DNA of 20,582 bases, taken from positions 99,824 to 120,405 of the IMG/VR virus record IMGVR_UViG_3300030085_004215. One strand, 5' to 3'. This document shows positions 2,470-20,231 of the stretch, one piece after another. The notes under the pieces were generated by a model. It did no database searches. It was given only the letters and a program-made list of their open reading frames with translations, and was not told where the DNA came from. A program made the translations under genes and the position numbers. The DNA is from a virus. How positions within the stretch are numbered: position 1 is the first letter of the stretch; every line of letters starts with the position of its first letter.

Positions 2470-4974
2470 TCAAAAAAATCTTTCAATACTTTGCTCTTTA
2501 TCTACTACATCTTCCCACTTCATTGCTTCATAAAACATACCAATCTTTTTACTCATGGCCTGTTCAAACATTCTATTGTGGTCTATGTGTGTCTTAATAA
2601 AATCTAATATTTGTGGTGGGTCTTCCCAACCTTTATAACCTATTGCATCAAAACCATATGTATTTTCTTTTAAATACACCCATTTAATCTTACTACCATT
2701 ACCAATCTTCTCATACTTTCTACCCTCGAACCAATGTTCTAATAGTGAATTGTAATTTATTGCTGCCTTAACATGGACAGGTGCACCCTTTTTATATTTA
2801 CTGAATGGTGAATCCTCATCTTTAATTTCATATTTTCCAATACCTTTTACACCGATTGGATTTGCCATAACATCATAATGTAACATATGCATATTTCTTT
2901 TGAACTTACTAATTCGTTCATCGATTTGTTCTTTAGGAACATTTGCAAGAATATCTTCTAATACATTACTTAATAGTTCTTTCATGGCAACTGCAAAATT
3001 ACTTCTGACTGTATCCAAACCTTTTACTTGTATTTTATTTACTTTTCTACCAGCATCATTTATGATTCGTAATCCATATCTTTTCTTTGTGATGAACAAT
3101 CCTGTCTTTGCAATTACCTCTTGTTTAATATCAAACTCGTGTTTATCGATGTTAAGAAACTTCTTAGCAAAATAATTATAACTATGATTTAAGTAATCTT
3201 GTACCTCACCACATATTTCCATAATCCGTTGAGTCATCATGGTTTCACTTAATTTTTTATTTGGAAATCTCTTTTTAACCAATGGTACTGCAGATGCAAA
3301 AATAGAATCGGTATCTATGTATATAACATAATCATCTTTATCTCCAAGTTCTTTGTTATAAAAATGGTTCGTTATTTTCTTACTGAACTTAATTAAGGCT
3401 TGACCAGTAGATGTTGTTGCCTCTGCATTATCAATATCGTAAAATCTAAATACAGGTAATCCCAATACACCATACAATGAATTCAATAGAATCTTCTGTA
3501 AGTATTGTCTCCTATCAAAATAAGATTCTTTTTCTTTATCACCTTGTTCATGAAACTTTTTCACAAGTTTTCTCATCTCAACTCTTTCATTAAACCACTT
3601 AGTTAAAAGTGCAGGAATCAATCCTTGTTTATCTGTACGATACATAATACCATTAGAGGAAATACTCAAACCAGTTTCTTGTAAATAGCTTTCTAATCCT
3701 TTATTATCTATGGTATCTATTTCTTTACCATCACGATTACATAATGTATAAGTTTTAACTAAATCCTTTTTCAAAAACTCATCTGCGTTCCAACCCTTTA
3801 CTTTACCCACTTTTGTTTCAGGTGATATATTAAGAGAACGAATTACACTCGGATACATACTTGTAATATCTAAATCAAATACCCAATCATGTCTACCTTG
3901 TTGTGGAGATTGTACATATGCTCCAGCAAACTTATCGTCATCATCTCTCTTGTAGATATTTTTAGGTTTATTGGGTGCAACCACACTTATTTTTTTCAAG
4001 TAAACTAAAATAGCACCCTCAAGATATCGTGAACTCATCATCACATCTTCATAAGGAACATGACCAAGATGTGCTATACCACGAGCAATATTTATATAAT
4101 CTAATTTTTTATCCAACTCAATTAGAATTTGTACATCTCGGATATTATAATCTATAAATGTCTGTAAATCTTTTTCATATAAATCATTGAGTGTTCCTTG
4201 ATATTCAACCTTTTTCATACCAACTTCCACTTCACCTATATAATCTAAACGATAACTTGATTGTTGTATTGGTGAAAACTTACGATATAAAGTTAAATAA
4301 TCTAAAATACTAACACCTGCAATACTATGTTTCTTTTTATATTCCGAATACATAACATTTCTAATTGGTGATAACATATCTGCAACACTTTTACCCAATA
4401 CATTTACTGTTCTATTGTAAAGATATGGTATATCAAAAAATTCTAAATTCCAACCACTCAATATATCTGGTGATATTTCTGAATATTTTCTATAAAATGC
4501 AGTTAATAAATCATTTTCACTTGTAAATAACTCTACAATTGTATCACCTTTTTCGTAATTTTTTAGTTCTTGTTTGAGGTCAAGTGTGTAACAAAAATAT
4601 TTTTGTAACATCTCATCATAAAACGCAATAGAAGTTATCTTCTCATTTGCTTTCATTACATCTGGAAATCCATCTACAACTTCTACCTCGATATCAAAGA
4701 AAAAAGTTCTGATACCTTCACTTGGTTCATCTGAATCTGTGTATTGGTCTACTAAAAATCTTGTAGTGATAGGAACATCACTCTCAAATAGGTTGGGGTC
4801 ATCATCATCCCATTGATATACTTTCTTTACTTTATCACCATCTAAGGTATGATGAAATCCTGCAGGGCTTTTTAAATATGCATATTTTTTATATGGTACA
4901 ATAAGGTGACCTCTTCTATCATCCCACACATGAACTTTATTCCGTCTCTTTTCGTAATAAATATTTTTATACAC
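2470..4974 (-). CDS. 43: Family B DNA polymerase with proofreading exonuclease (T4 gp43-like)
   Basis: An 834-residue replicative polymerase (T4 gp43 is about 898). The 3'-5' exonuclease is intact: Exo I FFFDIEVEV with D94 and E96, Exo II WNLEFFD at 175-181, and Exo III YNIRD at 276-280. The polymerase motifs are complete: motif A DLDITSMYPS at 367-376, motif B KILLNSLYG at 494-502, motif C YIDTDS at 552-557, and a KKRYG motif further on. No intein or frameshift is visible. The start codon is GTG at 4974, overlapping the upstream stop by 8 bases (GTGTATAA); no in-frame ATG lies near it. It sits in the unit small acidic protein - polymerase - clamp - methyltransferases, driven by the promoter at 5344-5373. 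Confidence 0.97.
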   Translation of the reverse strand: MYKNIYYEKRRNKVHVWDDRRGHLIVPYKKYAYLKSPAGFHHTLDGDKVKKVYQWDDDDPNLFESDVPITTRFLVDQYTDSDEPSEGIRTFFFDIEVEVVDGFPDVMKANEKITSIAFYDEMLQKYFCYTLDLKQELKNYEKGDTIVELFTSENDLLTAFYRKYSEISPDILSGWNLEFFDIPYLYNRTVNVLGKSVADMLSPIRNVMYSEYKKKHSIAGVSILDYLTLYRKFSPIQQSSYRLDYIGEVEVGMKKVEYQGTLNDLYEKDLQTFIDYNIRDVQILIELDKKLDYINIARGIAHLGHVPYEDVMMSSRYLEGAILVYLKKISVVAPNKPKNIYKRDDDDKFAGAYVQSPQQGRHDWVFDLDITSMYPSVIRSLNISPETKVGKVKGWNADEFLKKDLVKTYTLCNRDGKEIDTIDNKGLESYLQETGLSISSNGIMYRTDKQGLIPALLTKWFNERVEMRKLVKKFHEQGDKEKESYFDRRQYLQKILLNSLYGVLGLPVFRFYDIDNAEATTSTGQALIKFSKKITNHFYNKELGDKDDYVIYIDTDSIFASAVPLVKKRFPNKKLSETMMTQRIMEICGEVQDYLNHSYNYFAKKFLNIDKHEFDIKQEVIAKTGLFITKKRYGLRIINDAGRKVNKIQVKGLDTVRSNFAVAMKELLSNVLEDILANVPKEQIDERISKFKRNMHMLHYDVMANPIGVKGIGKYEIKDEDSPFSKYKKGAPVHVKAAINYNSLLEHWFEGRKYEKIGNGSKIKWVYLKENTYGFDAIGYKGWEDPPQILDFIKTHIDHNRMFEQAMSKKIGMFYEAMKWEDVVDKEQSIERFF

Positions 4975-5317
4975 TAACCATTCCGTCTATTGTACTTTCT
5001 AATTCACCCCACATGAGAATACTACAATAAAGTATCTCATCATCTTGACTCCAGTCTCTACCACTAAATGACATTGTATCTTCTTCAAAATCATCTTCCC
5101 AATATACTTCGCCTGTATCATGGTTATAGATTTGACAAATGTGAAGTTCTTCATCAACCATTTCCCAAACTACTGCAAAATCATCACACTCACTTGTAGT
5201 GTAATCTTTACAGAACTCTAACATTAAGTTATCGAATGTAACTTCTCTTGTTTCTGGGCCTAATTCTTCTACACCCATATTGTGATTTTTATTATATATT
5301 GTTTCGTTCAAATTCAT
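4967..5317 (-). CDS. Small acidic protein of unknown function
   Basis: A 116-residue acidic protein, rich in Glu and Asp, with several Trp and Cys residues and no signal peptide or membrane segment. I do not recognise its family. The reading frame could begin at an ATG at 5338, but I chose the ATG at 5317 because AAAGGA lies 6 bases before it. It is the first gene after the promoter at 5344-5373 and overlaps the DNA polymerase start by 8 bases, so the two are likely co-translated. Its position suggests a replication-associated or regulatory role, but nothing in the sequence shows one. Confidence 0.75.
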   Translation of the reverse strand: MNLNETIYNKNHNMGVEELGPETREVTFDNLMLEFCKDYTTSECDDFAVVWEMVDEELHICQIYNHDTGEVYWEDDFEEDTMSFSGRDWSQDDEILYCSILMWGELESTIDGMVSV

Positions 5318-5343
5318 GATATTTCCTTTATTTTTCATACCTT

Positions 5344-5373
5344 AATATAAGAAATAAAGCATATATGAGTCAA
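5344..5373 (-). promoter_or_regulatory. Sigma70-type promoter for the polymerase-clamp-methyltransferase unit
   Basis: Read on the minus strand, TTGACT (5368-5373) is followed after 18 bases by TATATT (5344-5349); each box matches five of six consensus bases. It lies between the terminator of the TonB-dependent receptor gene and the start of the small acidic protein gene, where a new transcript is needed. This is the best host-type promoter in the window. Function is inferred. Confidence 0.7.
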
Positions 5374-5403: not shown

Positions 5404-5431
5404 AAAAAAAGAGGGGGAAAATATCCCCCTC
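5404..5431 (-). terminator. Rho-independent terminator after the TonB-dependent receptor
   Basis: On the minus strand GAGGGGG (5425-5431 complement) pairs with CCCCCTC (5411-5417 complement) across a 7-base AT loop and is followed by seven T residues (5404-5410). It starts 13 bases after the receptor stop codon. This is a perfect intrinsic terminator that separates the receptor transcript from the polymerase unit. Confidence 0.93.
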
Positions 5432-5443
5432 AATTTTATTATT

Positions 5444-8197
5444 TTAGAAATTAACTGACAACCCTAAGTTAAAGCTTCTTGGTGTACCCAAAAAGACTTC
5501 AGCATTATGAGCCAAGTGAAGTTTATCACCATACCCATTATACTTTGAATTATCAACTGCATCTTGAATGTATACATTATCAAGTGCATTGAATAGATGT
5601 CCATGTAAGGTTACATCTAAACCAGCAATTTCTGGTAAGTTGTAAGAAAGGTGTAGGTCTAACTTACCATAAGATGGAGTTTTCCATACTTGTGTTCTAT
5701 CTGCATCACCATCAACCTCACGAGAATCAGGACTCCAATCTGAATAGTGGTTATCATACCATCTATAAAGACCTTGTACACTCAATCCTTCGATTGGTTT
5801 GATTGTTAATCCACCAACATAAGATTTCTGTGGCATATCACCAACTTTTAGATTATTAAGAGCATATTCATACTCAGTAGATGTTTGTCCAATGATTTGA
5901 TTATCATCATTATATTCCATCTCTGTGTAATCACCCTTAGCATCTCCATCAAAATACCAATCACCAATACTTACGGCAACATCCAAATCAACCATTTCGT
6001 GTAGAGCAACTTTAGACTCAATCTCGAAACCACTATGACTTTGATTTACACCAGTTAAGTAAATAATATCAGTATCACCACTATCACCTTGGCCTGTCGT
6101 TACAGATTTGGTAAGATTTCTATCTTTCCATTGAGTGTTATAGTAACTACCTTTGATAGCAACTTTATCACTTCTGTACTCACCACCGATTTCATTAGAT
6201 ATGAACTTTTCATTATCTGGATTTGAAGATACATTTCCATCATAATCAATTACATTATCTAAGATTGGTGGTTTCTGAACATACCCAATATTAGCAAATG
6301 CTGAAAGTCTGTCATCAAGATTATATCTACCACCACCTTTAACTTGGAAAGTAGTAATAGATGGTGCCTCTACAAAGTTATCAATCTTGTTTCCATCCTC
6401 ATCTACATCAAGAGCGAAATGGTCTTCGTAGGTATATCCAATCGTGGAAACACCACCCATACCATAAAGATTAATCTTCTCTGTATCGTATTTACCTTGT
6501 AGGAAAGCACCGAACCAATCTACTGTGGTTTCGTTATGATAAGCAATGATATCACCTAACCTAACGACTTTACCATCAGATGCGTTATCATCGGCATAGT
6601 CTACATAATAGTCTCCACCAAGTAAATCACGAACCTCACGAGCATGTTCAATACCAGCAGTTCTCCAATCAATACCAATCTGAACCTCAAGTTCATCTGA
6701 TACATCATAGTTCAATTTAGAAATCAAACCATATGTGTTTTGTCTGTTGATTGAGTTTCTTAGGATACCTGTTGAACGATTTTCAACATCAGAGAAAGCA
6801 GAATCTACATTAGATGAGTTCTGTGCAATCTCTCCATCCCAATCCCACATCCACGGTGAACTTGCATACCAAGGCTCTCCTTCAACTGCAGGTTTTCTAC
6901 TGACACTTCCATAAGTACCAGTACCACCACCTGAACCACCACTCCAATATAATACTGAAGATAATCTCATATCATCATTTATATCATAGAAATGGTTTAG
7001 ATTTACAAGTGGTTTATGAAAGAAGTTTTCTCTTTCATTTAGGAAATCAGAACTGAACCTATCTGTAGTTCTAGCACCATACATATACCAATATTGTTGG
7101 CCTTTGTATGATGGGTCTACAGGTGCCCAATTTTGATTGTAGAACCTACCAGCTTCAGTTTCGAACTTCTCACCTTCAGCGAAAGCAGTTTCATCGTATC
7201 CATCAATATCACCAGCTAACTCTTGTGAGTAAGTAGCGATATTCTGTTTGTATAGGTTCTGTCCGTGCCGTTGTGGGGCACCGATTGCATATAACTCAAA
7301 TCTTTGGTCATCAGATACAGCATAAGATGTACCCAAATAATAAGCCCAAGCATCTGTCCATGTACCGTCAATAAAACCATCACCAGTTTTACGAACTATA
7401 GTTCCACTTATTGCTAACTTATCATTGATTAGTCCAGAGTTATACGACAAGGTAGATTTAAGGAATCCACCTTCACCGACTTCTTGTTTAAACTTCCCAC
7501 CTTTATCGTGAGCAGCAGGGTCGGTAATAATGTTCATAGTTCCACCAATGGATGGTGTTGCTAGATTTACGGCTGATAGACCTCTTTGCATCTGAATGGA
7601 AGAAGTAGCATCTCCTACTCCATCCCAATTAGACCAATAAACCCATCCGTTCTCCATGTCATTTTGGGGAACACCATTAATCATAACGGCAACATTCCGT
7701 TGATTGAATCCACGAACATTGATACGGGCATCTCCCGCACCTCCACCTTGTTGTGTTGCATATACACTTGGTGTAGTATTAAGAATCATTGGAATATCTT
7801 GAGAACCTAATCTCACTTCCATTTGTTCTTTACTAACTGTAGTATAAGCAACGGGTGTTGTTTCATCCGCCCTTGAAGCCAAAACTTCAAGTGCCGTGAG
7901 AGCAACAACATCAGTTTCTAAATCGAAACTAACACTCCCAACGATATCTCCAACCTTTACACTTTTGGTTAGAGACACATAACCGATGTATGAAGCAGTA
8001 ATTTCAAAAGTACCAGTACCAGTTTCGATAACAAATTTCCCTTCGGAATCTGTCACTCCACCGAGTTCAGTACCTTCGATAACAACATTAGCTCCAACAA
8101 GTGGTTCTTCTCCCTCTCCAACAAAACCAGTAACTGCTTGTGCAAACACAAATCCTACTGATAATACTGAAGAAAGAAATAGATTACGATAGTTCAT
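5444..8197 (-). CDS. TonB-dependent outer-membrane receptor with carboxypeptidase-regulatory-like domain
   Basis: A full-length 917-residue outer-membrane receptor. It has a signal peptide (about 1-20, ending VFAQ), a carboxypeptidase-D regulatory-like beta-sandwich (about 20-100, with GANVVIEGT and GVTDSEGKF), a TonB-box-like region (LTALEV), and a plug domain with INVRGFNQRN, MINGVPQ and GGTMNIIT. The rest is a long beta-barrel ending in a C-terminal Phe (LGLSVNF), the usual outer-membrane assembly signal. Such receptors import siderophores, cobalamin, glycans or other large nutrients using energy from TonB-ExbB-ExbD. The substrate cannot be read from the sequence. I chose the ATG at 8197 over 8233 because GAGGAG lies just before it and the signal peptide then starts cleanly. 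The gene is embedded between phage replication genes, follows a B12-dependent reductase, and is intact, which is highly unusual for a phage. Confidence 0.93.
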   Translation of the reverse strand: MNYRNLFLSSVLSVGFVFAQAVTGFVGEGEEPLVGANVVIEGTELGGVTDSEGKFVIETGTGTFEITASYIGYVSLTKSVKVGDIVGSVSFDLETDVVALTALEVLASRADETTPVAYTTVSKEQMEVRLGSQDIPMILNTTPSVYATQQGGGAGDARINVRGFNQRNVAVMINGVPQNDMENGWVYWSNWDGVGDATSSIQMQRGLSAVNLATPSIGGTMNIITDPAAHDKGGKFKQEVGEGGFLKSTLSYNSGLINDKLAISGTIVRKTGDGFIDGTWTDAWAYYLGTSYAVSDDQRFELYAIGAPQRHGQNLYKQNIATYSQELAGDIDGYDETAFAEGEKFETEAGRFYNQNWAPVDPSYKGQQYWYMYGARTTDRFSSDFLNERENFFHKPLVNLNHFYDINDDMRLSSVLYWSGGSGGGTGTYGSVSRKPAVEGEPWYASSPWMWDWDGEIAQNSSNVDSAFSDVENRSTGILRNSINRQNTYGLISKLNYDVSDELEVQIGIDWRTAGIEHAREVRDLLGGDYYVDYADDNASDGKVVRLGDIIAYHNETTVDWFGAFLQGKYDTEKINLYGMGGVSTIGYTYEDHFALDVDEDGNKIDNFVEAPSITTFQVKGGGRYNLDDRLSAFANIGYVQKPPILDNVIDYDGNVSSNPDNEKFISNEIGGEYRSDKVAIKGSYYNTQWKDRNLTKSVTTGQGDSGDTDIIYLTGVNQSHSGFEIESKVALHEMVDLDVAVSIGDWYFDGDAKGDYTEMEYNDDNQIIGQTSTEYEYALNNLKVGDMPQKSYVGGLTIKPIEGLSVQGLYRWYDNHYSDWSPDSREVDGDADRTQVWKTPSYGKLDLHLSYNLPEIAGLDVTLHGHLFNALDNVYIQDAVDNSKYNGYGDKLHLAHNAEVFLGTPRSFNLGLSVNF

Positions 8198-8226
8198 AGT
8201 AATCTCCTCGTTTTGTTTATTAAGTA

Positions 8227-8260
8227 GGCACATTTTTCTACAGGTGTGCCGTCTGCCTGT
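8227..8260 (-). promoter_or_regulatory. H-type RNA pseudoknot in the leader of the receptor gene
   Basis: On the minus strand ACAGG (8260-8256) pairs with CCTGT (8244-8240), and GGCACA (8250-8245) pairs with TGTGCC (8232-8227). The order of the four strands is that of an H-type pseudoknot: loop 1 of 5 bases, no bases between the stems, and an A-rich loop 3 (AGAAAAA). It lies between the reductase stop and the receptor's ribosome binding site, about 20 bases from the latter. It could control translation of the receptor. I recognise no known riboswitch consensus in it. Confidence 0.55.
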
Positions 8261-8275
8261 CCGCTTTTGTTAAGT

Positions 8276-10291
8276 TTAATTAGCATAATCCTGGTCATCG
8301 TTATCACCAGTCAAAGGTGGAACTTCACAACTATCGTTGTTACAGAACTTATCAACTTCTGCTTCTTCATTCTTTATCACACCAAATGATAACTTACCAA
8401 GTTTTGCAACTTCTTTATCATAAGTTTTTTCATCAATTGCTTCATAAGGCATTTGTTGATACGCACCATAATCATGTCTTGGTAATAACGAAATACCTTT
8501 CAAATGATACTGATAATAATTCAAACATGGAGCAATCTGATTTGACTCTGTTTCAGGATTAAATGTAACCGTACAACTTACTTGGTTGTCTGCCCAATGT
8601 CGTTGTAAAAACGCGGCCAAACTAAATTGTTCCCAAATTGATAGTTCAGCCGCAGTTTTTATCCCCTCACCGACATCTACGGGTATATCTACAACCATTG
8701 TTGTATCTTCTGAACCAAATGCTGGTTCTAAGTTGTAACCTGCTTTCTTTAATGGTTCTATTAATTCTGAATGTTTTGATAACCTAACCCTTCTTATATA
8801 AAATCTACTTTCTGGATAATGCAAACCTGGAGTAGCACCAGCCAATAATGAAACGGTACCACTTGGTTTAACTGAAGTAGTTTTAATTGACTTTGGTACA
8901 GCAAACCAATCAGAATACATATCATCCCACTCTTGAATAACATCGTATCCATGATTTAACCACTCCTTTAGTTCATTGATTCCTCTGTGAGTAATGAACT
9001 GAGCAACACCACTAACAGAACAACCAATTCTTCTATTTCTCAACATAACTCTATTGGTATCACTCCAATGAGTTCTTCCCAAAGTAACCGTTTTAGCATA
9101 CAAGTATGCATATTTTAATGTTCTAGCATAATCCTCAAAATCATCATGATTATCAGGAAAAGTTTCTACTAAACAACATAACTCGTATGATTCAAGAGAT
9201 TGTTCCAAACAAGGATTTCCACCCATAACTCTATGGTCTTTGTTATCTCCACCATTTTTCATACGAGAATATTTTCTCATATTGTCTAACCAAGCAAAAC
9301 CTGGTTCTCCATTATCATTAATTCTTTTTGCTGCTTCGGTATAATCCATACCTAATTCAGCGAATATACTATTATTAGATGTCCATCCATAAGTTTCCCT
9401 ATGTGGATTTACTTTATAATTTTTTAAATCTAAATATTCTTCAGAATTAGGGTCACCAAATACAATCTCAGCAGTTCTTCTTACATTACCTGCAACAACA
9501 CACTTACCGATTAGATTCATAATATCTACGATTGTTGTGATTGTGATAGGTTCTCCACTATTGTTTTCTAATACTTTTCTAATCTCTTCATGTACTTCTT
9601 CTAATGGTTCGTGTCCACTTGATACTCCACCAAATCCACTTATTGGTTCTCCTGCAGGTCTGATTTTAGAATAATCAAATTTAATTGTGGCTTGTCCATG
9701 AAAATAACTCTCTAATAATAGCTTAAGTGATTCTACCCAACCCTCACGAGTATCTGGTATTTCAAATACTTGTTCGTCTCTATCTTTTTCAACTCCTTTA
9801 ACTATTATTTCTCCTGCACCCTTTGTATCAAATCCAACACCTACACCCAACATACTTGCATCCATCAAGAAACAAAATGGTTTAGCATAATCTTCTTTTA
9901 GTGTTTTTGTTGATACGAAAGCACAATTGTTTAGGGCGGCGTATAATCCCTTTTTCTCTGTGATAGGCGTTCCCATCGCCCACAGACCGCGACCAGGAGG
10001 CAAAAACTTCATAGTGAAAATACGCTCATACATATCTTGAGCTGACTTTTGAGCTTGCCACGGATTCCACCCTAATTGATGTGATTCAATCCAATTCATT
10101 TGCATGGTGTAGGTTCCCTCTACAACCCTTTGTACTGTTTCCCACCATCTTTCGTTCTTACCATCTTCTTTAATTCTTGAGTAGGTTCTCATATAAACCA
10201 ATTCACCAAGACCATTAAAACCAAATGGTGGTTTCTTTCTTTTGTATTTACTTATAAAATTTTCTGATAAAACAAATTTTTTATTGTCCAT
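8276..10291 (-). CDS. nrdJ: Adenosylcobalamin-dependent (class II) ribonucleotide reductase, monomeric RTPR type
   Basis: A 671-residue reductase that converts ribonucleotides to deoxyribonucleotides, needing adenosylcobalamin but no oxygen and no small subunit. The cysteines match the Lactobacillus leichmannii RTPR pattern: C123 in NNCAFVST and C372 as the reducing pair, C361 in NPCLEQSLE as the thiyl-radical cysteine with E363 nearby, and a C-terminal shuttle pair C650-x4-C655. The 11-residue spacing from the radical cysteine to the second redox cysteine is the same as in RTPR. Other family segments are VVAGNVRRTAEI and KPSGTVSLLAGATPG. I chose the ATG at 10291, since the upstream extension begins only at a TTG and a GGGATG box lies 8 bases before the ATG. 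The next gene downstream is a TonB-dependent receptor. Confidence 0.95.
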   Translation of the reverse strand: MDNKKFVLSENFISKYKRKKPPFGFNGLGELVYMRTYSRIKEDGKNERWWETVQRVVEGTYTMQMNWIESHQLGWNPWQAQKSAQDMYERIFTMKFLPPGRGLWAMGTPITEKKGLYAALNNCAFVSTKTLKEDYAKPFCFLMDASMLGVGVGFDTKGAGEIIVKGVEKDRDEQVFEIPDTREGWVESLKLLLESYFHGQATIKFDYSKIRPAGEPISGFGGVSSGHEPLEEVHEEIRKVLENNSGEPITITTIVDIMNLIGKCVVAGNVRRTAEIVFGDPNSEEYLDLKNYKVNPHRETYGWTSNNSIFAELGMDYTEAAKRINDNGEPGFAWLDNMRKYSRMKNGGDNKDHRVMGGNPCLEQSLESYELCCLVETFPDNHDDFEDYARTLKYAYLYAKTVTLGRTHWSDTNRVMLRNRRIGCSVSGVAQFITHRGINELKEWLNHGYDVIQEWDDMYSDWFAVPKSIKTTSVKPSGTVSLLAGATPGLHYPESRFYIRRVRLSKHSELIEPLKKAGYNLEPAFGSEDTTMVVDIPVDVGEGIKTAAELSIWEQFSLAAFLQRHWADNQVSCTVTFNPETESNQIAPCLNYYQYHLKGISLLPRHDYGAYQQMPYEAIDEKTYDKEVAKLGKLSFGVIKNEEAEVDKFCNNDSCEVPPLTGDNDDQDYAN

Positions 10292-10407: not shown

Positions 10408-11769
10408 TTATTCAAACCCATCGTTGTCAAAATCTTTCTTTTTTTGTGCTAATGTTTTACGAATATACTCATCAGCATTATTCATTTTCCCTTGTACTTC
10501 TTGTCCCCCTTTCGTGTTTGTTTCATAAATTTGAATGAAACCTGTGTTTGTATTTATGGTTGCTGGAAAGGTTATTCCATCAGGCCCGAATCTATTTTTG
10601 ATTACATGAAATCTACCTGTGTTCGCAATCTTATCCTCTACCTTACGACTCATACTCATCACAAAATCTGCTGTCATCACTTTACTATAATCCTCAGATA
10701 CTTTACTTGCATCAATAACATCTTCCTCTAATGATGAACGATTTGCCTGTGATGCAGTCCATATTGGAATATCAAACTCACCTGCCATACCTCTTAACTC
10801 TTCATATACATGACCTATCTGATGTCGTTTCTCATTGAAATTTTGTGTTGATTTCATGATATCAGCATAATCCACAATAACCATATCTGGTTTGATACCT
10901 TGTAGTTCACATTGTTGTAAATGTGCAGTTAAAGTATTTACACTTGCAGTTCTTGTTGGATAGTATTTTATTATCAACTCACCTTTTAGTTGTCCGATTT
11001 TTTTCAGTACTTCTTCTTTATAATATTGTAGGTTTCCAGTCGGTTGTCCACTTACGATGGTATCATATCGTAATCCTACATACTGAGCATTTAGCTCTAA
11101 TGTATAATGAATCACTGTCAATCCTTTTTTAACAGCATGAGCACCTAAGGCCTGTAGTGTCCAAGATTTACCAATACCAGCAGGTGCAACTACAACTCCA
11201 AGTTCACCACCTGCCAATCCACCATCCATCAAATCATTAACACTATCCCATTGTGTTGGTAATGTATTTCTTGCTTGTTGATTCATTCGTTCTTCAAAAC
11301 CAGTGATGTACTCGTGACCTATATCTCGTTCTACACCTGCAGTCATTGCTTTATCTATAATAGTTTTTATCTCATCATATTTTTGAGTTTCTAATAATTC
11401 AACACTTTCCATTATGGCACTCTTAACAACTTGATTTTTACAAAACTCAAGTGATTTTTCTTTTATAAACTCTAAATCAGGTGATTCTCGATGTTGCCAT
11501 GCACCTCGTAAACTATCAATGATTGAAGTTTTTAATACATCATTATCCACATCATCAACTAAAACTTTTAATGCCTCCATTGTAGGAGTATTTTTATATT
11601 TAGTAAAATAATCTTTAACTGATTTTACTAAAAATTTATTTGAATCAGAGTCAAAATATCCTATTTCTAAAATATCAATAATCTGTTTTGTGAATTTATT
11701 ATCTACTAAAAGTGATGTTATTAATTTACTTTGAAAATTTGTGCCGTATTGTATTAAAGATTCACTCAT
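10408..11769 (-). CDS. 41: Replicative DNA helicase, DnaB/gp41 type
   Basis: A 453-residue SF4 hexameric helicase (T4 gp41 is 475), which unwinds the lagging-strand template at the fork. The C-terminal RecA-like domain shows Walker A APAGIGKS at 195-202, a catalytic-Glu strand HYTLE at 221-225, Walker B VIVDYAD at 297-303, and the later WTASQANR and KNRFGP segments typical of DnaB. The N-terminal 150 residues are the helical interaction domain. I chose the ATG at 11769, because the longer reading begins only at TTG. No good ribosome binding site precedes it, and it starts 8 bases after the upstream stop, so coupling is likely. No primase (gp61) or helicase loader (gp59) is in the window. Confidence 0.93.
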   Translation of the reverse strand: MSESLIQYGTNFQSKLITSLLVDNKFTKQIIDILEIGYFDSDSNKFLVKSVKDYFTKYKNTPTMEALKVLVDDVDNDVLKTSIIDSLRGAWQHRESPDLEFIKEKSLEFCKNQVVKSAIMESVELLETQKYDEIKTIIDKAMTAGVERDIGHEYITGFEERMNQQARNTLPTQWDSVNDLMDGGLAGGELGVVVAPAGIGKSWTLQALGAHAVKKGLTVIHYTLELNAQYVGLRYDTIVSGQPTGNLQYYKEEVLKKIGQLKGELIIKYYPTRTASVNTLTAHLQQCELQGIKPDMVIVDYADIMKSTQNFNEKRHQIGHVYEELRGMAGEFDIPIWTASQANRSSLEEDVIDASKVSEDYSKVMTADFVMSMSRKVEDKIANTGRFHVIKNRFGPDGITFPATINTNTGFIQIYETNTKGGQEVQGKMNNADEYIRKTLAQKKKDFDNDGFE

Positions 11770-11777
11770 AACCAATA

Positions 11778-15155: not shown

Positions 15156-15551
15156 AAAGTTGAAATTTTTGGGGATGTAGGATTAACGATTACCTACAAC
15201 TTCAAGCTCAGATTTTTTCTACCTTGTACCTAACACCTTTCAGTTACGAAAATTCTTCTAAATGATGGTTAGTCATCGTTGAAGTGAGTACAACCTCTGT
15301 GCCATTACCTTAACTCTCTGAGTTTAGTTTATTCGGTCATGAAGTGGGATTTCAGTTTTACCCTTACCCACAACAAGGTCAATAGAATCGTTTCTATTGT
15401 TATATCTTGAAGTACATTCTCTTAGTATTGTCATACGGTATTTTGAACATTTACCCGAATACCAACTCACCACAAGTCTAAGAGCGGATTACCTTATGAG
15501 CTTCTAAAGTGTACTCATTGTTCGGTCAATCCCATACAGAGTTAATTACTC

Positions 15552-15640: not shown

Positions 15641-15672
15641 ATTTTTTTTTATTTTTTTTTTATTTTTTTTTA
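15641..15672. repeat. Helically phased T tracts
   Basis: On the plus strand T runs of nine, ten and nine are interrupted by single A residues at 15641, 15651, 15662 and 15672, a spacing of 10, 11 and 10 bases. This matches the DNA helical repeat and would favour intrinsic curvature. It lies immediately after the TonB-C gene stop and upstream of the structured RNA. It could act as an UP-like element or simply be low-complexity sequence. Confidence 0.6.
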
Positions 15673-16002
15673 TTTAAATAAAATTGGTAATTGATATCTA
15701 ACTTTAACTGGTCTACCATTTTGTTTAGCAGGTTCAAATCTAATAGCTAATACTCTATCGATAATCGCATTGTTAAATTGTGTATTAAATGTATCTACAA
15801 TTTGTGGATTTACAACATCTCCTTCTTCATCAACAAAAAAACTAACAACTACTTTTCCTTTTATAGTTGAAGTATCTCTGGTTGGTAGGTGGTGATAATC
15901 TAATGTAAATGGTGTTTTGATTTTAGGTTGTTGGTTCTCACCGTATGGTGAATCTTGGGCAACCAACAGGCCCATTAATAGTAAACAAAAAAGTCGCTTC
16001 AC
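15670..16002 (-). CDS. TonB C-terminal domain protein
   Basis: A 110-residue protein with an N-terminal hydrophobic signal or anchor (MKRLFCLLLMGLLVAQ) and a TonB C-terminal domain over about 45-110: KGKVVVSFFVDEEGDVVNP, then an AIIDRVLAIRFEPAKQNGRPV segment that carries the family's R-F-x-PA-x-x-x-G-x-P-V pattern. TonB proteins carry proton-motive energy from ExbB-ExbD to outer-membrane receptors. This one lacks the usual proline-rich spacer needed to span the periplasm, so it may be a periplasmic TonB-C protein rather than a working transducer. I chose the GTG at 16002 because GGAG lies 7 bases upstream and the signal peptide begins there; the longer frame to 16062 has no such site. It may work with the receptor at 5444-8197. 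Confidence 0.82.
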   Translation of the reverse strand: MKRLFCLLLMGLLVAQDSPYGENQQPKIKTPFTLDYHHLPTRDTSTIKGKVVVSFFVDEEGDVVNPQIVDTFNTQFNNAIIDRVLAIRFEPAKQNGRPVKVRYQLPILFK

Positions 16003-16115
16003 TTTTGTTCTCCGAGATTTATATGATTGAAGTTTAACACAAGAAAGTCCATAAACTTTCAACCATAAGTATAAATTAAAATTAAAAAAATAAGGTTTTT
16101 TTTGTTAGAATTTTA

Positions 16116-16718
16116 TTAGATTCTGTTTATTTTGGATTCAAGTTGAGATATTAAGGTATTTATCCTTTCCAGTTTAGGATTATTAGGATTTTCTTTTAAA
16201 ATCTTGTCTCTTTTTATCATCAACTTACCATATGCTTTTTGTAAGTCTATTAGAGCAAGTCCTTTCATACTTCTTCTGTAATATAAATGTTCAAGTGCTT
16301 CATCTTCTGCTTCTGCTCCACGAACACCAGCAACTGCTGTTATGGTTTCAACCTCACCATATACATCTGTGACATCTTGAATTTCTTCCCATACCGTATT
16401 TTCCCACATAGCATCTAAATCTAAATTATCTATCTCTGCTAATGCTTCTTGTGTATCTATACTATCTTGAATTGCTTTTTCTCTTTGTTGTCTTTTTCTT
16501 TTTTCAGCAAACTCTCTATCTAAGTTTACAGAAAGAATTGAATCACATTCAGATAACCATCCACCATAACCTTTCCAAGCAGGCGAACCTTTGTAATCTC
16601 TGTATTCTGTGTCATCACAATCTTGTCCGTAAGCAACACCTCGTTTGAACTCTGATGTTCTTTTGATGTCTTGAGAATATATAACACTTAATAATAAGAC
16701 AAGTGTTAAATATTTCAT
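16116..16718 (-). CDS. Secreted helical protein of unknown function
   Basis: A 200-residue protein with a clear signal peptide (MKYLTLVLLLSVIYSQ) and no lipobox. The mature part holds two cysteines (in QDCDD and SECDS) that could form a disulfide, then a charged helical stretch (REFAEKRKRQQREKAIQDS) and a C-terminal helical segment of coiled-coil type. I do not recognise a family. The ATG overlaps the stop of the upstream membrane protein by four bases (ATGA), so the two are probably co-translated and may act together in the periplasm. Confidence 0.7.
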   Translation of the reverse strand: MKYLTLVLLLSVIYSQDIKRTSEFKRGVAYGQDCDDTEYRDYKGSPAWKGYGGWLSECDSILSVNLDREFAEKRKRQQREKAIQDSIDTQEALAEIDNLDLDAMWENTVWEEIQDVTDVYGEVETITAVAGVRGAEAEDEALEHLYYRRSMKGLALIDLQKAYGKLMIKRDKILKENPNNPKLERINTLISQLESKINRI

Positions 16719-17182
16719 AATATGTCAATTTCTATATTTAAATTTCGTGTAGGACTTTTGTCGTAATCTGTACCGACTATTATTTGATATTCACCAGGTG
16801 GTATTTTACTTGACCATTCTGTTCGATATAGTTTCCACACATAGGTTTCTATTCTTTCTTTATTTTTATACGGGTCTAAAGATAATGGTGAAGCATGTAC
16901 TCTTTTACCTTGTGAATTTATCATGTATAAACGAGTATTTTCTTTTTGAACTTTATAACGAATCTTTACACAATCACCACCATTTATATCTGTGGTTTGC
17001 CATGCCTGTAATGGATATTGATTGAAAGTATCCATCTTTGGTTCTGAACTTACTATTGATGGTTCATCGTAATCGTAGAAAAAAACAAATCCTAAAACAA
17101 AACATATAAGAGCTATTAGAATCATCTCTAATAGCTCTTCACTTTGAGTCTTATAATTATTTTGTTTAGCCCACATAGTCAT
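16715..17182 (-). CDS. Membrane-anchored protein with beta-rich extracytoplasmic domain
   Basis: A 155-residue protein with one N-terminal membrane helix (about 19-36) and a C-terminal domain of about 115 residues predicted to be beta-rich, with GDCVKIRYKV, TRLYMINSQGKRV and PPGEYQIIVGTDY. The last resembles strands of immunoglobulin-like or FlgD-like sandwiches, but the family is not recognised. AAGGA lies 5 bases before the ATG at 17182. It follows the pilin gene after a stem-loop and overlaps the secreted protein gene by four bases. Its position suggests an envelope role alongside the pilin-like proteins. Confidence 0.7.
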   Translation of the reverse strand: MTMWAKQNNYKTQSEELLEMILIALICFVLGFVFFYDYDEPSIVSSEPKMDTFNQYPLQAWQTTDINGGDCVKIRYKVQKENTRLYMINSQGKRVHASPLSLDPYKNKERIETYVWKLYRTEWSSKIPPGEYQIIVGTDYDKSPTRNLNIEIDIL

Positions 17183-17200
17183 AGTCTTCCTTTTAATAAA

Positions 17201-17226
17201 TAGGGGATTAGGATGTTAATCCCCTA
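17201..17226 (-). terminator. Stem-loop after the pilin gene, probable terminator or attenuator
   Basis: A 10-base-pair perfect stem, TAGGGGATTA with TAATCCCCTA, closes a 6-base loop five bases after the pilin stop codon. The following minus-strand bases (TTTATT) form only a weak U tract, so partial termination or mRNA 3'-end protection is likely. Confidence 0.6.
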
Positions 17227-17230
17227 ATCA

Positions 17231-17668
17231 TTATTGTACTAACAGTTCTGGAGATTCAGCCAATTCAAAAGTAGTAGAATCGTAAGTGTAATACCATATC
17301 TCATCATTTCTTCTGAAATGATATAGTCTACCCTCACCATCACTTTCGATATTATATTGCCACTCACCATCTGTATCAGGCACACCTAATATAAGATTAA
17401 GAGTCACATTACGACTTCTACCAATAACACTTAATGGATTATAAGGCCAAGCTTCAAGACCTGTTCTGAGTAACTCCTCAGAAGCGTGTTCTTCAAGACC
17501 AGCCCACACCATATCAGCGAATGCCTTCTCTGCCGATGCTTCCGCATTATCCACGGTCTCTTGGTATCTCGGTATAGCAACAGCTGCCAAGATTCCCAAT
17601 ATGATTGTAACCATTACTAATTCAATCAATGTGAAACCCTTAGATGTGTTTTTGATTATGTTCTTCAT
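17231..17668 (-). CDS. Type IV pilin / pseudopilin
   Basis: A 145-residue protein with a textbook class III signal: a short basic leader, then G11 followed by FTLIELVMVTIILGILAAVA. Prepilin peptidase would cut after G11, giving a mature N-terminal Phe and the invariant Glu at position 5 (E16). The hydrophobic helix (12-33) anchors and polymerises the subunit. The remaining domain has no cysteines and a beta-rich C-terminus (GRLYHFRRNDEIWYYTYD). AAGGAA lies five bases before the ATG. Assembly would need host PilB, PilC and PilD, as no such genes are in the window. It could be a pilus subunit or a type II secretion pseudopilin. Confidence 0.9.
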   Translation of the reverse strand: MKNIIKNTSKGFTLIELVMVTIILGILAAVAIPRYQETVDNAEASAEKAFADMVWAGLEEHASEELLRTGLEAWPYNPLSVIGRSRNVTLNLILGVPDTDGEWQYNIESDGEGRLYHFRRNDEIWYYTYDSTTFELAESPELLVQ

Positions 17669-17700
17669 TTTGTTTCCTTCCTGGACTTTTTGTCCGTTGA

Positions 17701-18348
17701 TTATGGTACTAAAGTTTTGTTTAATTTAGCTGGATTTTCAGTATCTATCACGACCATTACAGGTGCCTGAGCATCTGTTCCACTACCACTTCCTGGTATT
17801 ACTAAGTAAGCATATGAACCATCCTGAAATGGTGATTCAATACCTTGATTACCAAAGTCTTTTTTGAAATCAAGAGCACCAACTTCTTGTCCACCATCAA
17901 AGTCTACGGATGTTTCAAGGTTCATCCAACCACCTTGTAGTGCATCATCATCATCAACTGCAGATGAGAATATGTAGACAAACTCACTTAAGTCATCTTC
18001 ATAAGAAGCTTTTTGTTCTAAGATAGTTTCAATGTATGCCTCAAGTGTCTCATCAGTTAGAGCACCTTCTGCTAAATCAATACCACCTACAGCAACATCG
18101 TATTTCTCTTGACCAGGAAAACGACCTTTACCTTCTTCAGATAGTGTTTGGTTGTAATAATTGTTAGCAACAGTAAGAATCTTATCGATGTTAGCGATAG
18201 TCTTTTTCTCTTTTGCACCAGCTCCAACTTGTCCAAACTTTGGAGCAGCCGTAGTTGCTAGGGTTGCCATCATAGCCGTAGTAACAGCGAATTCAGCAAG
18301 TGAATTACCTTTACGACTCTTTAATTTTTTTCTAAGTTTCTCGAACAT
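17701..18348 (-). CDS. Type IV pilin-like protein with atypical G|N signal
   Basis: A 215-residue protein with a basic leader (KLRKKLKSRKG) followed by NSLAEFAVTTAMMATLATTA. If cut after G14, the mature protein has Asn at position 1 and Glu at position 5 (E19), the pilin hallmark, although the hydrophobic helix is richer in Ala and Thr than usual. The remainder is acidic, with a DDDD run and a C-terminal beta-rich segment (YAYLVIPGSGSG, APVMVVIDTEN). AGGAG lies 7 bases before the ATG. It directly precedes the classical pilin gene, so the pair may encode major and minor subunits. The pilin reading is inferred from the N-terminus and the neighbour. Confidence 0.75.
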   Translation of the reverse strand: MFEKLRKKLKSRKGNSLAEFAVTTAMMATLATTAAPKFGQVGAGAKEKKTIANIDKILTVANNYYNQTLSEEGKGRFPGQEKYDVAVGGIDLAEGALTDETLEAYIETILEQKASYEDDLSEFVYIFSSAVDDDDALQGGWMNLETSVDFDGGQEVGALDFKKDFGNQGIESPFQDGSYAYLVIPGSGSGTDAQAPVMVVIDTENPAKLNKTLVP

Positions 18349-18374
18349 TTCAGTTCTCCTAATTGTTATTGTTA

Positions 18375-18397
18375 CTTATATAGTACAATAACTGTAC
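18375..18397 (-). promoter_or_regulatory. Palindrome and TATA-like box upstream of the pilin pair
   Basis: A perfect inverted repeat, GTACA-N5-TGTAC (18383-18397), abuts TATATAAG (18382-18375) on the minus strand, about 27 bases before the pilin-like start. The box resembles phage late (TATAAATA) or host -10 elements, and the palindrome could be an operator. No good -35 box is visible. Confidence 0.35.
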
Positions 18398-18460
18398 CAA
18401 AGTGGTCGATTTTTAGAATTTTTTTTTCTGTGTTGATATTGTTGAACTTAGAGAGGTGCG

Positions 18461-18489
18461 AAAAAAAACCCCACAAAAAGTGAGGTTTT
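18461..18489 (-). terminator. Rho-independent terminator after the thioredoxin-fold gene
   Basis: On the minus strand AAAACCTCAC (18489-18480) pairs with GTGGGGTTTT (18474-18465) through ten pairs, one of them U-G, around a T5 loop, and runs into a T8 tract (18468-18461). It ends the transcript that begins upstream with the lipoprotein and beta-barrel genes. The pilin genes therefore need their own promoter. Confidence 0.88.
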
Positions 18490-18529
18490 CAAAATGTTAC
18501 AGTGTAACAAAACTAAACAAGGTGTATCA

Positions 18530-18904
18530 TTAGAATACATCTTCGGCTAGGACATCATCAATAGCACCTTTTACATCCTTATTATCGATATCTAATTCTC
18601 CATCCATATCAGCTTTCCATGTTTCTTTCTTACTACCATCATAGAATAAAGCCATGGACGGAAAGTTTCTGAATCTAAGTTTTTTTGTTACCTTTGGTGC
18701 TTCTTCACTTTTAATGTAAATGATTTCGGCATCTTGATATCCTTTTACACCCTTTACAATATCTTTGTCAAATGGTTGTTCTTGCCATTCTGATGTAAAT
18801 ACAGCAACTACAACTCCACCATTTATTTCTGATTTAAAATTCTTATCATTTATCTGACTAAAACCTACAGATAGAAATAATAATAAACCTAATAACTTTC
18901 TCAT
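18530..18904 (-). CDS. Secreted thioredoxin-fold protein without the CxxC active site
   Basis: A 124-residue protein with a signal peptide (MRKLLGLLLFLSVGFSQ) and a thioredoxin-like domain: a VVVAVFTSEW strand and turn, a helix, a DAEIIYIKSEEAP strand, and RFRNFPSMALFYDG containing the cis-proline (P82) of the fold. Where thioredoxins have WCGPC, this protein has W40-Q-E-Q-P, so both redox cysteines are missing and it cannot be a disulfide reductase. It is more likely a binding or chaperone-like protein in the periplasm. I chose the ATG at 18904, because AGGAG lies 7 bases upstream and overlaps the stop of the preceding gene. The longer frame to 18937 adds a basic tail before the signal peptide. 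Confidence 0.8.
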   Translation of the reverse strand: MRKLLGLLLFLSVGFSQINDKNFKSEINGGVVVAVFTSEWQEQPFDKDIVKGVKGYQDAEIIYIKSEEAPKVTKKLRFRNFPSMALFYDGSKKETWKADMDGELDIDNKDVKGAIDDVLAEDVF

Positions 18905-18914
18905 ATTACGACTC

Positions 18915-19574
18915 CTACTTGTCTTTCTTCTTAGCAACTTCTACTCTAAGATTAGATACTAACTTCTCTAATTCTTCAATTTTTTCTTCAAACTCATCTA
19001 TATAATCATAGACCTCATCCATGTCTTTTTGTAGTCCACCAACTTGTGTTTTGTATTGTTCGTAGGAACGAGGCCAGTTATGACCATCGGGTTTGGATGG
19101 ATACTCATCACCAAATATAGATTCAATAGATGGTGGTTCAGGTAAGTTCTTTGCTTCTTCTATTTCTGCTAACAACATATAATAACCACCAACACCTGCT
19201 GATATAATACCAACTAAAGCAACGATAGTCTGTATAGACATCGTGAACTTTGTACCCATAACTTTATCTTCTGATATCTCTACAGGTTCTTCTTTTTTCG
19301 GTTCTACTGGTGGTATATCCTTTACCTCAGGTTTTATTTCTATGGGTTCTTTATGAATCTCTTCGTGTTTTTCCTCGTGTTGTTTTGTATCTGTTGAAGA
19401 GTTCATCAAAGCATCTGTAATATCTTCAAATGTACAGAAGTTCATCTCAACAAGGATTTCACCAATAGTCCCTTTGTTACCTTTAACTTGTGCTTGTAAG
19501 GCTTTGCTTAGTTGTCTCTTTGTAATGATATCCTCATCACATAATAGTTGTCCTAATTTGACACCATCACTCAC
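18915..19574 (-). CDS. Membrane protein with MshEN-like (secretion ATPase N-terminal) domain and coiled coil
   Basis: A 219-residue protein. Residues 5-56 (KLGQLLCDEDIITKRQLSKAL, then GEILVEMNFCTFEDITDAL) resemble the N-terminal domain of type II secretion or type IV pilus ATPases (GspE/PilB/MshE), which in some members binds cyclic di-GMP. There is no ATPase domain. A Pro/Glu-rich linker (about 60-105), one membrane helix (about 111-136), and a C-terminal acidic region with a probable coiled coil (178-215) follow. The start is a GTG sharing one base with the upstream stop, with AAGGGG 7 bases before it. Its nearness to two pilin genes suggests a link to the pilus machinery, as inference. The segment match is by eye. 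Confidence 0.7.
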   Translation of the reverse strand: MSDGVKLGQLLCDEDIITKRQLSKALQAQVKGNKGTIGEILVEMNFCTFEDITDALMNSSTDTKQHEEKHEEIHKEPIEIKPEVKDIPPVEPKKEEPVEISEDKVMGTKFTMSIQTIVALVGIISAGVGGYYMLLAEIEEAKNLPEPPSIESIFGDEYPSKPDGHNWPRSYEQYKTQVGGLQKDMDEVYDYIDEFEEKIEELEKLVSNLRVEVAKKKDK

Positions 19575-20155
19575 TAATACACCCCTTGATAAAATGTAGC
19601 CTCAGGATCTGTACCTACTTCCAAGTTATCAAATATTATTATACCATGTTGCATTTCATCTCTGTAAGGATTGAAGAAGTATCCATCAGCTATACCACTT
19701 ACAAGACCATCTTCATACTTACTAATCGATGCTTGTGAGAACTCTGTGTAATCAGATAGTCCTACAATCTCTAATGTAATTCTACCACTTGTTGTTTGTA
19801 GTAGTAATGAATCCATTTGTGTACCACCTAAGTATAGTTTCTCATCTATCGGTTGTCCATTATCAGCTCCATTGTTGTCATACATAATCAGAGCATAATG
19901 TTCCTTTTCAGGTGTAACCCTACCATCTTCTCTTTGAAAGTGAAGTACGAATATCTTTTTTATAGAACCATCATCTTGTACTTCAGAAGCTCCGTATGTA
20001 GTTATACTCTCGTAGTATTCACGAGCTATAATCTCTGAACCATTGACGAACATTTGAATATTCTCTACTAATGGTTCTTCTATTCTATCGTCCTCACAAC
20101 TCGGCATCAAAAACATTGTTGACAACAATATTAATCCACAAATTGTCCTTACCAT
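19574..20155 (-). CDS. Outer- or inner-membrane lipoprotein of unknown function
   Basis: A 193-residue protein with a lipoprotein signal (MVRTICGLILLSTMFLMPSC), in which C20 would be lipidated, followed by acidic residues (EDDRIEEP). The mature part is beta-rich and reads like a secreted sandwich domain (VENIQMFVNGSEI, HYALIMYDNNGADNGQPI, GRITLEIVGLSDY). I do not recognise a family. The open frame extends to 20221, but AGAGG lies 8 bases before the ATG at 20155 and the signal peptide begins there, so the shorter form is preferred. The stop overlaps the next gene's GTG by one base. Confidence 0.75.
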   Translation of the reverse strand: MVRTICGLILLSTMFLMPSCEDDRIEEPLVENIQMFVNGSEIIAREYYESITTYGASEVQDDGSIKKIFVLHFQREDGRVTPEKEHYALIMYDNNGADNGQPIDEKLYLGGTQMDSLLLQTTSGRITLEIVGLSDYTEFSQASISKYEDGLVSGIADGYFFNPYRDEMQHGIIIFDNLEVGTDPEATFYQGVY

Positions 20156-20180
20156 ATTATATACCTCTTCTTGATTCATT

Positions 20181-20231
20181 TTAACACCCACATCCACAAT
20201 CACAACAATTACAGCAATCACATTTCTTCAT
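20181..20231 (-). CDS. Cysteine-rich 16-residue peptide
   Basis: A very short open frame, ATG at 20231 to TAA at 20181, encodes MKKCDCCNCCDCGCGC: eight cysteines in 16 residues, at positions 4, 6, 7, 9, 10, 12, 14 and 16. AGGAG lies 6 bases before the ATG, as good a ribosome binding site as any gene here has, and the frame fits neatly between the beta-barrel and lipoprotein genes. The composition suggests a tiny metallothionein-like metal-binding peptide, or a scaffold modified after translation. It could be a chance frame; the ribosome binding site and composition argue against that. Confidence 0.6.
   Translation of the reverse strand: MKKCDCCNCCDCGCGC

Follow-up and report, generated by a model that had tools for sequence, protein, structure and literature searches.

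A TonB-dependent receptor gene apparently taken from Marinimicrobia (SAR406) and exchanged among T4-like phages

Uptake genes carried by phages are known, the PstS genes of cyanophages among them. The phage-encoded TonB-dependent receptor (TBDR) is also known as a kind, since a TBDR (SusC) of the marine megaphage Mar_Mega_1 has been published, with nutrient uptake during infection proposed by its authors (PMC9723777); this was the one earlier report of a phage TBDR found in the literature searched, which held no earlier description of TBDRs in SAR406 phages. The receptor described here resembles that of Mar_Mega_1 in being a phage-encoded, full-length TonB receptor for which a similar role in uptake is proposed, but it belongs to another TBDR family, occurs in hundreds of viral contigs, appears to derive from SAR406 and occupies two sites. 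Its sole full-length viral structural match, A0A8D9FQQ5 ('TonB-dependent receptor SusC [uncultured marine phage]', 12% identical), may be the same protein as the Mar_Mega_1 TBDR. Like cyanophage PstS, the present gene is a gene for nutrient uptake, of host origin, in a marine phage of T4 type; PstS, however, is periplasmic, whereas the receptor is predicted to be an active transporter of the outer membrane. Escherichia coli BtuB (1nqe) has the TBDR fold in common with it, but the two are 12% identical and neither a riboswitch nor a tree links them. The closest described counterparts belong to a conserved group of TBDRs in the FCB superphylum, encoded on the chromosome in Marinimicrobia. They are orthologous to the phage receptor (45-66% identical) and have the same domains and near-invariant residues but, unlike it, have no ribonucleotide reductase (RNR) or DNA polymerase neighbours; no characterised member of this family was found in this analysis. 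New here are the presence of the family in hundreds of viral contigs, its traced SAR406 origin, its two alternative sites and its exchange among phages.

The receptor gene and its setting

The window (the whole stretch of DNA analysed, 20,582 nucleotides) is the final 20.6 kb of a 120,405-base virus record. On the minus strand, genes for gp32, UvsX, an exonuclease, a small protein, a DnaB-like helicase, a class II RNR and the TBDR follow one another, and the order continues with a small protein, a family B polymerase (polB), a clamp and a methyltransferase-like protein (Table 1). The receptor is thus flanked by replication genes of T4 type (polB, clamp, DnaB-like helicase, exonuclease, UvsX and gp32), as a sequence-only reading of this DNA had described. 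The first ATG of the receptor reading frame, at 8233, would give a protein of 929 residues (5444-8233, minus strand); an internal ATG at 8197 is preceded by a good ribosome-binding site, GAGGAG, and yields 917 residues and a gap of 78 bases to the RNR gene. The same reading had claimed an intact 917-residue TBDR lying 78 bases after a B12-dependent RNR and followed by a terminator of its own. All of this holds: the reading frame, Pfam domains, AlphaFold2 barrel and signal peptide agree on an intact receptor, the RNR is assigned by TIGR02505 and the gap follows from the ATG at 8197, and a hairpin with a run of T residues (5431-5411) begins about 12 bases after the receptor stop codon.

Table 1. 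Features of the receptor locus and of the surrounding window, with the basis of each assignment
Feature	Position in window	Strand	Basis or remark
TBDR gene, 917 aa	5444..8197	minus	start is the ATG behind the ribosome-binding site GAGGAG
Signal peptide MNYRNLFLSSVLSVGFVFAQ	8138..8197	minus	read from sequence and alignment; kept in phage relatives
CarbopepD_reg_2, N-terminal carboxypeptidase-regulatory-like domain	7895..8116	minus	Pfam, 53 bits, above cut-off
Putative TonB box region LEVLASRA	7868..7891	minus	deduced from location, after the regulatory-like domain and before the plug
Plug domain	7538..7864	minus	Pfam PF07715, 54.3 bits, cut-off 23.9
Transmembrane beta barrel, final residue phenylalanine	5447..7501	minus	AlphaFold2 model and PDB fold matches
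Class II (adenosylcobalamin-dependent) ribonucleoside-triphosphate reductase (RNR)	8276..10291	minus	TIGR02505, 371.5 bits, cut-off 340
DnaB-like replicative helicase, upstream of RNR	10408..11775	minus	one of the T4-type replication genes
Family B DNA polymerase (polB), other side of receptor site	2470..4974	minus	one of the T4-type replication genes
Small acidic protein, 123 aa, without assigned function	4967..5338	minus	relatives in 2/80 loci
Intrinsic terminator GAGGGGGATATTTTCCCCCTC-TTTTTTT, predicted to end the RNR-receptor transcript	5411..5431	minus	~12 bases past receptor stop
Promoter-like TTGACT-18-TATATT, before the next genes	5344..5373	minus	consensus match only
Secreted protein with TonB C-terminal domain	15670..16062	minus	PF03544, E 3e-11; no anchor or long linker beyond the signal peptide

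AlphaFold2 models the receptor as a beta barrel closed by a plug (mean pLDDT 81), matched in the fold search by TonB receptors in the PDB with E values down to 1e-35, and the protein has a plug, a C-terminal barrel round it, a signal peptide and a terminal aromatic residue, which are among the features by which TonB-dependent transporters are recognized. A sequence search of the PDB gave a match confined to the N-terminal and plug part (9gbc_A). In the alignment, the LEVLASRA segment is nearly invariant in the phages and in close host orthologs. Assignment as SusC/RagA was rejected (TIGR04056, 51.8 bits against a cut-off of 368), as was a haemoglobin/transferrin/lactoferrin receptor (TIGR01786, 61.8 bits against 323.75), and no SusD lipoprotein gene was found among the receptor's neighbours in the window.

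RNR and receptor are probably co-transcribed, because no sigma-70-type promoter match lies wholly inside the gap that separates the two genes, and because both the terminator and the next promoter-like site are located past the receptor; one weak match (8314-8285) falls at the 3' end of the RNR gene. Terminator-like sites are in excess in this region (11 versus 2.6 in shuffled sequence), whereas promoter-like sites are not (34 versus 31), so the promoters are to be read as consensus matches only.

Distribution, host origin and exchange

A contig scan revealed relatives of the receptor in 331 viral-contig stretches, the best 80 being 74-92% identical to it. Among these best 80 of 331, the RNR gene lies directly upstream in all 75 loci with enough upstream DNA, a few of them with another gene intervening, and when contigs were picked by their RNR instead, the receptor was present in 63 of the 70 with room for it; six of the others run from RNR to polB, with or without an extra gene between, and one holds too little sequence to judge. 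The gene pair that the earlier reading had proposed to seek in related phages is therefore frequent there, and a chimeric assembly is excluded by the recurrence of the same junction in dozens of contigs. The receptor is nevertheless dispensable, since about 10% of relatives are without it. At locus L171 (4380-4600), one of the six, the RNR-polB junction retains the last nine codons of the receptor (FNLGLSVNF-stop) and its terminator and is a deletion scar. The T4-type capsid gene gp23 is present in two related records of larger size; an annotated phage collection returned only proteins of about 24-31% identity, all from uncultured metagenomic phage records.

Other genes also lodge here. Glutamine synthetase, an unusual cargo gene for a phage, lies between RNR and receptor in five loci (PF00120 tested on L175; L178, L207, L237 and L070 called by sequence likeness), and in L077 (12981-15105) a HAD-type phosphatase-like gene, thymidylate synthase and dUTPase stand between the receptor and a divergent polymerase. 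The occurrence of glutamine synthetase, thymidylate synthase and dUTPase in these relatives identifies the RNR locus as a cargo site for supply functions. In L048 and L363 (the same contig) and in L355, the match to the RNR is incomplete and has a large gap upstream of it, and the helicase match of L355 is incomplete as well; these partial RNR matches look like interruption by an intron, an intein or an insertion.

The nearest cellular relatives of the receptor, at about 56-66% identity, all come from Candidatus Marinimicrobia (SAR406) or from unclassified FCB-group metagenome-assembled genomes (MAGs), and beyond Marinimicrobia a wide family extends across the FCB superphylum. In a 53-row tree, the Marinimicrobia orthologs enclose a clade (SH-aLRT 100) made up of 34 phage receptors together with a single MAG sequence (L082). 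Sequence comparison thus places the receptor as a host gene of Marinimicrobia origin carried by phages, and a gene of host origin that has become fixed in a phage genome of lytic type is what is expected of an auxiliary metabolic gene, judging from this nesting, the T4-type neighbours and gp23 in the two related records. Monophyly of the phage receptors alone is rejected (p 1.5e-4), L082 falling within their clade, which implies repeated transfer, a return of the gene to a host, or misplacement or misbinning of L082; on this Marinimicrobia MAG contig (JAFMFP010000048.1), two TBDR paralogs lie in tandem and a DegT-like aminotransferase is encoded as well. Marinimicrobia are also most likely the hosts of these phages, mainly in view of the origin of the receptor and of signal peptides that resemble those of the host.

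The gene is under strong purifying selection and is very likely functional, on two grounds: an alignment of 39 cellular orthologs from across the FCB superphylum has 184 near-invariant columns (at least 95% identical), of which 12 of 12 phage copies retain 182, and close phage pairs give dN/dS values of 0.05-0.17. Among the phages, predicted barrel loops and strands show equal conservation (0.86 for both). The phage receptor probably retains the ligand and the energy coupling of its host ortholog.

A second site for the same receptor came to light in nine further viral contigs. Gene order, read in detail for six of the nine, runs hsp20, small proteins, a 280-residue membrane protein and the receptor, followed in several contigs by a polynucleotide-kinase-like phosphatase and, further downstream, by genes for peptide deformylase, QueD, QueE or an IMP-dehydrogenase-like protein. 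No RNR of any class, class I included, was detected in the second-site records, which are fragments of up to 69.5 kb. Conversely, five RNR-site records, that of the window's own virus among them, contain hsp20 and the marker membrane protein with no receptor behind them, and no record tested encodes more than one Plug protein.

RNR-site and hsp20-site receptors are intermixed in the tree, well-supported branches forcing at least five changes of site, and a single clade of RNR-site receptors is rejected (p 1.6e-40). Distances between receptors correlate at 0.11-0.19 with those of polB, helicase and UvsX, which correlate with one another at 0.75-0.94; RNR and receptor are intermediate at 0.53, and all of these values are lowered somewhat by the choice of loci on receptor similarity. 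In AU tests, one core clade is rejected by the receptor data (p 2e-85) and the grouping of the window with locus L001 by the core data (p 1e-36), while three other core clades are not rejected (p 0.10, 0.11 and 0.42). Locus L383 matches the window at 93% in UvsX and 89% in polB but at 73% in the receptor. Site interleaving, low correlation with the backbone, the AU conflicts and the L383 mismatch together show that the receptor has been exchanged between phages and between the two genomic sites. Its placement beside RNR is common, not obligatory.

Possible roles during infection

Taken together, these data are best explained, in our judgment with a probability somewhat above even, by a mobile host-derived transporter gene that sustains nutrient import during infection and is not a dedicated partner of RNR. 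T4-like phages most likely infecting Marinimicrobia would have taken an outer-membrane TBDR gene from them; the gene would be transcribed together with RNR, the Sec and BAM machinery of the host would deliver its product to the outer membrane, and there, with energy from host TonB, the receptor would maintain or raise uptake of the host ortholog's substrate while host gene expression declines, to the likely benefit of the phage. As exchangeable cargo, the gene would be swapped by recombination, held at the RNR-polB site or behind the hsp20-membrane protein pair, or lost. The earlier idea that the phage supplies a nutrient receptor stands in this general form, a functional-looking, host-derived TBDR that is probably co-transcribed with RNR being consistent with feeding of the infected cell.

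SAR406 is abundant and largely uncultured. At the deep chlorophyll maximum, TBDR genes contribute some of its abundant transcripts (PMC13096325). An active transporter of host type, if phages do place one in the outer membrane, would alter what the cell takes up and not only its internal metabolism. The abundance of SAR406, its strong TBDR transcription and the presence of the TBDR in most detected phage relatives give such a change a potential bearing on ocean nutrient flow. The receptor also offers a way to recognize likely SAR406 phages in metagenomes.

Frequent swapping, however, is also expected of a surface or competition gene. A phage TBDR variant could displace or mask a host receptor used by competing phages or bacteriocins, and this superinfection exclusion or receptor replacement is a serious rival because exchange of the receptor between phage lineages does not follow the backbone and some of these phages encode a secreted TonB C-terminal domain that could block TonB. 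The position of the receptor among replication genes also suits it, as does the precedent of TBDRs such as FhuA, which are phage receptors and exclusion targets; the PDB fold matches of the receptor include FhuA bound to phage T5 pb5 and to the exclusion lipoprotein Llp. The TonB C-terminal domain protein, possibly a partner or a competitor of host TonB, is nonetheless present in only six of 22 related virus records, one of the six without the receptor, a distribution on which we rejected it as a fixed partner of the receptor. Moreover, the predicted loops show no diversification relative to the strands, and the phage copies retain the near-invariant host positions as well as the TonB-box region. 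Given the conserved loops and this intact region, we favour transport and regard exclusion as unlikely, at about one chance in a handful.

Slightly less likely again is a more specific form of the transport explanation, in which import of a phosphorus- or nucleotide-type compound feeds phage DNA synthesis. Of 49 orthologs outside Marinimicrobia whose downstream DNA is long enough, 16 (L111, L119, L140, L146, L153 and eleven other FCB loci) are directly followed on the same strand by a gene for a nucleotide pyrophosphatase/phosphodiesterase (PF01663, E 1e-90; phmmer matches to ENPP1 and Xanthomonas NPP), and the phage locus gathers RNR, thymidylate synthase, dUTPase and glutamine synthetase. 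The pair is missing, however, from all 24 Marinimicrobia orthologs and from the phage records, which makes it a weak hint to substrate; a gene of this type lies elsewhere in the three Marinimicrobia genomes tested, and the neighbourhoods of the Marinimicrobia orthologs offer housekeeping genes only as a clue. Gene neighbourhood is weak evidence in any case, and ENPP-type enzymes take varied substrates. A phosphorus- or nucleotide-type substrate is thus a weak guess, and it is improbable, to a similar degree, that SAR406 phages install a transporter importing such a compound for viral DNA, trading its alleles between two docking sites as a shared pool. The receptor-pyrophosphatase pair in FCB loci is, in its own right, a clue to what an uncharacterised TBDR family transports.

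The sequence-only reading had put forward, alongside other scarce nutrients and other uses, a cobalamin receptor supplying B12 to the class II RNR, an explanation that we now consider very improbable. BtuB is a TBDR, the B12-dependent RNR is adjacent and probably co-transcribed in the 75 testable loci among the best 80 of 331, and RNR distances are the best correlate of receptor distances (r 0.53). TBDRs under riboswitch control are the genes expected to import B12. Of nine Marinimicrobia genomes scanned, however, seven have exactly one cobalamin riboswitch, and all seven riboswitches precede a TBDR gene with a Plug domain that is not the ortholog of the phage receptor. Local alignments of these TBDRs with the phage receptor are weak at best (about 20% identity, E 0.013 or worse), and in a tree that included other TBDRs of these genomes, the five tested form a clade of their own (SH-aLRT 100), apart from the clade of phage receptors and orthologs (SH-aLRT 100), although the riboswitch rows are long branches and the deep order is unsure. 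Scans of the window and of six cellular ortholog loci gave no cobalamin riboswitch, and 12 phage records gave no cobS-family match above cut-off. BtuB ranks only 32nd-35th among the PDB fold matches, no closer than siderophore or PQQ receptors; siderophore, PQQ, citrate and B12 receptors score alike, so the fold search is uninformative on substrate.

On this indirect evidence, a different, riboswitch-controlled TBDR is the candidate B12 receptor of the Marinimicrobia host, and cobalamin is disfavoured as the substrate here. A functional pairing with class II RNR fares no better: the same receptor also occurs at the hsp20 site, in fragments where no RNR was detected, and receptor and backbone trees disagree. 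The B12 part of the earlier proposal is thus largely overturned by a non-cobalamin grouping of the receptor and by its loose linkage to class II RNR in related phages; neighbouring cargo genes such as RNR and the receptor need not share a function.

Elsewhere in the window, a manA RNA motif (RF01745, 73 bits, cut-off 55.2) lies upstream of the gp32 gene (15172-15372, minus strand). A cluster of genes for exported proteins (16116-20221, minus strand) encodes type IV pilin-like proteins (17231-17668, with an N_methyl match, and 17701-18348), a secreted thioredoxin-like protein (18530-18937) and a lipoprotein-like protein (19574-20221).
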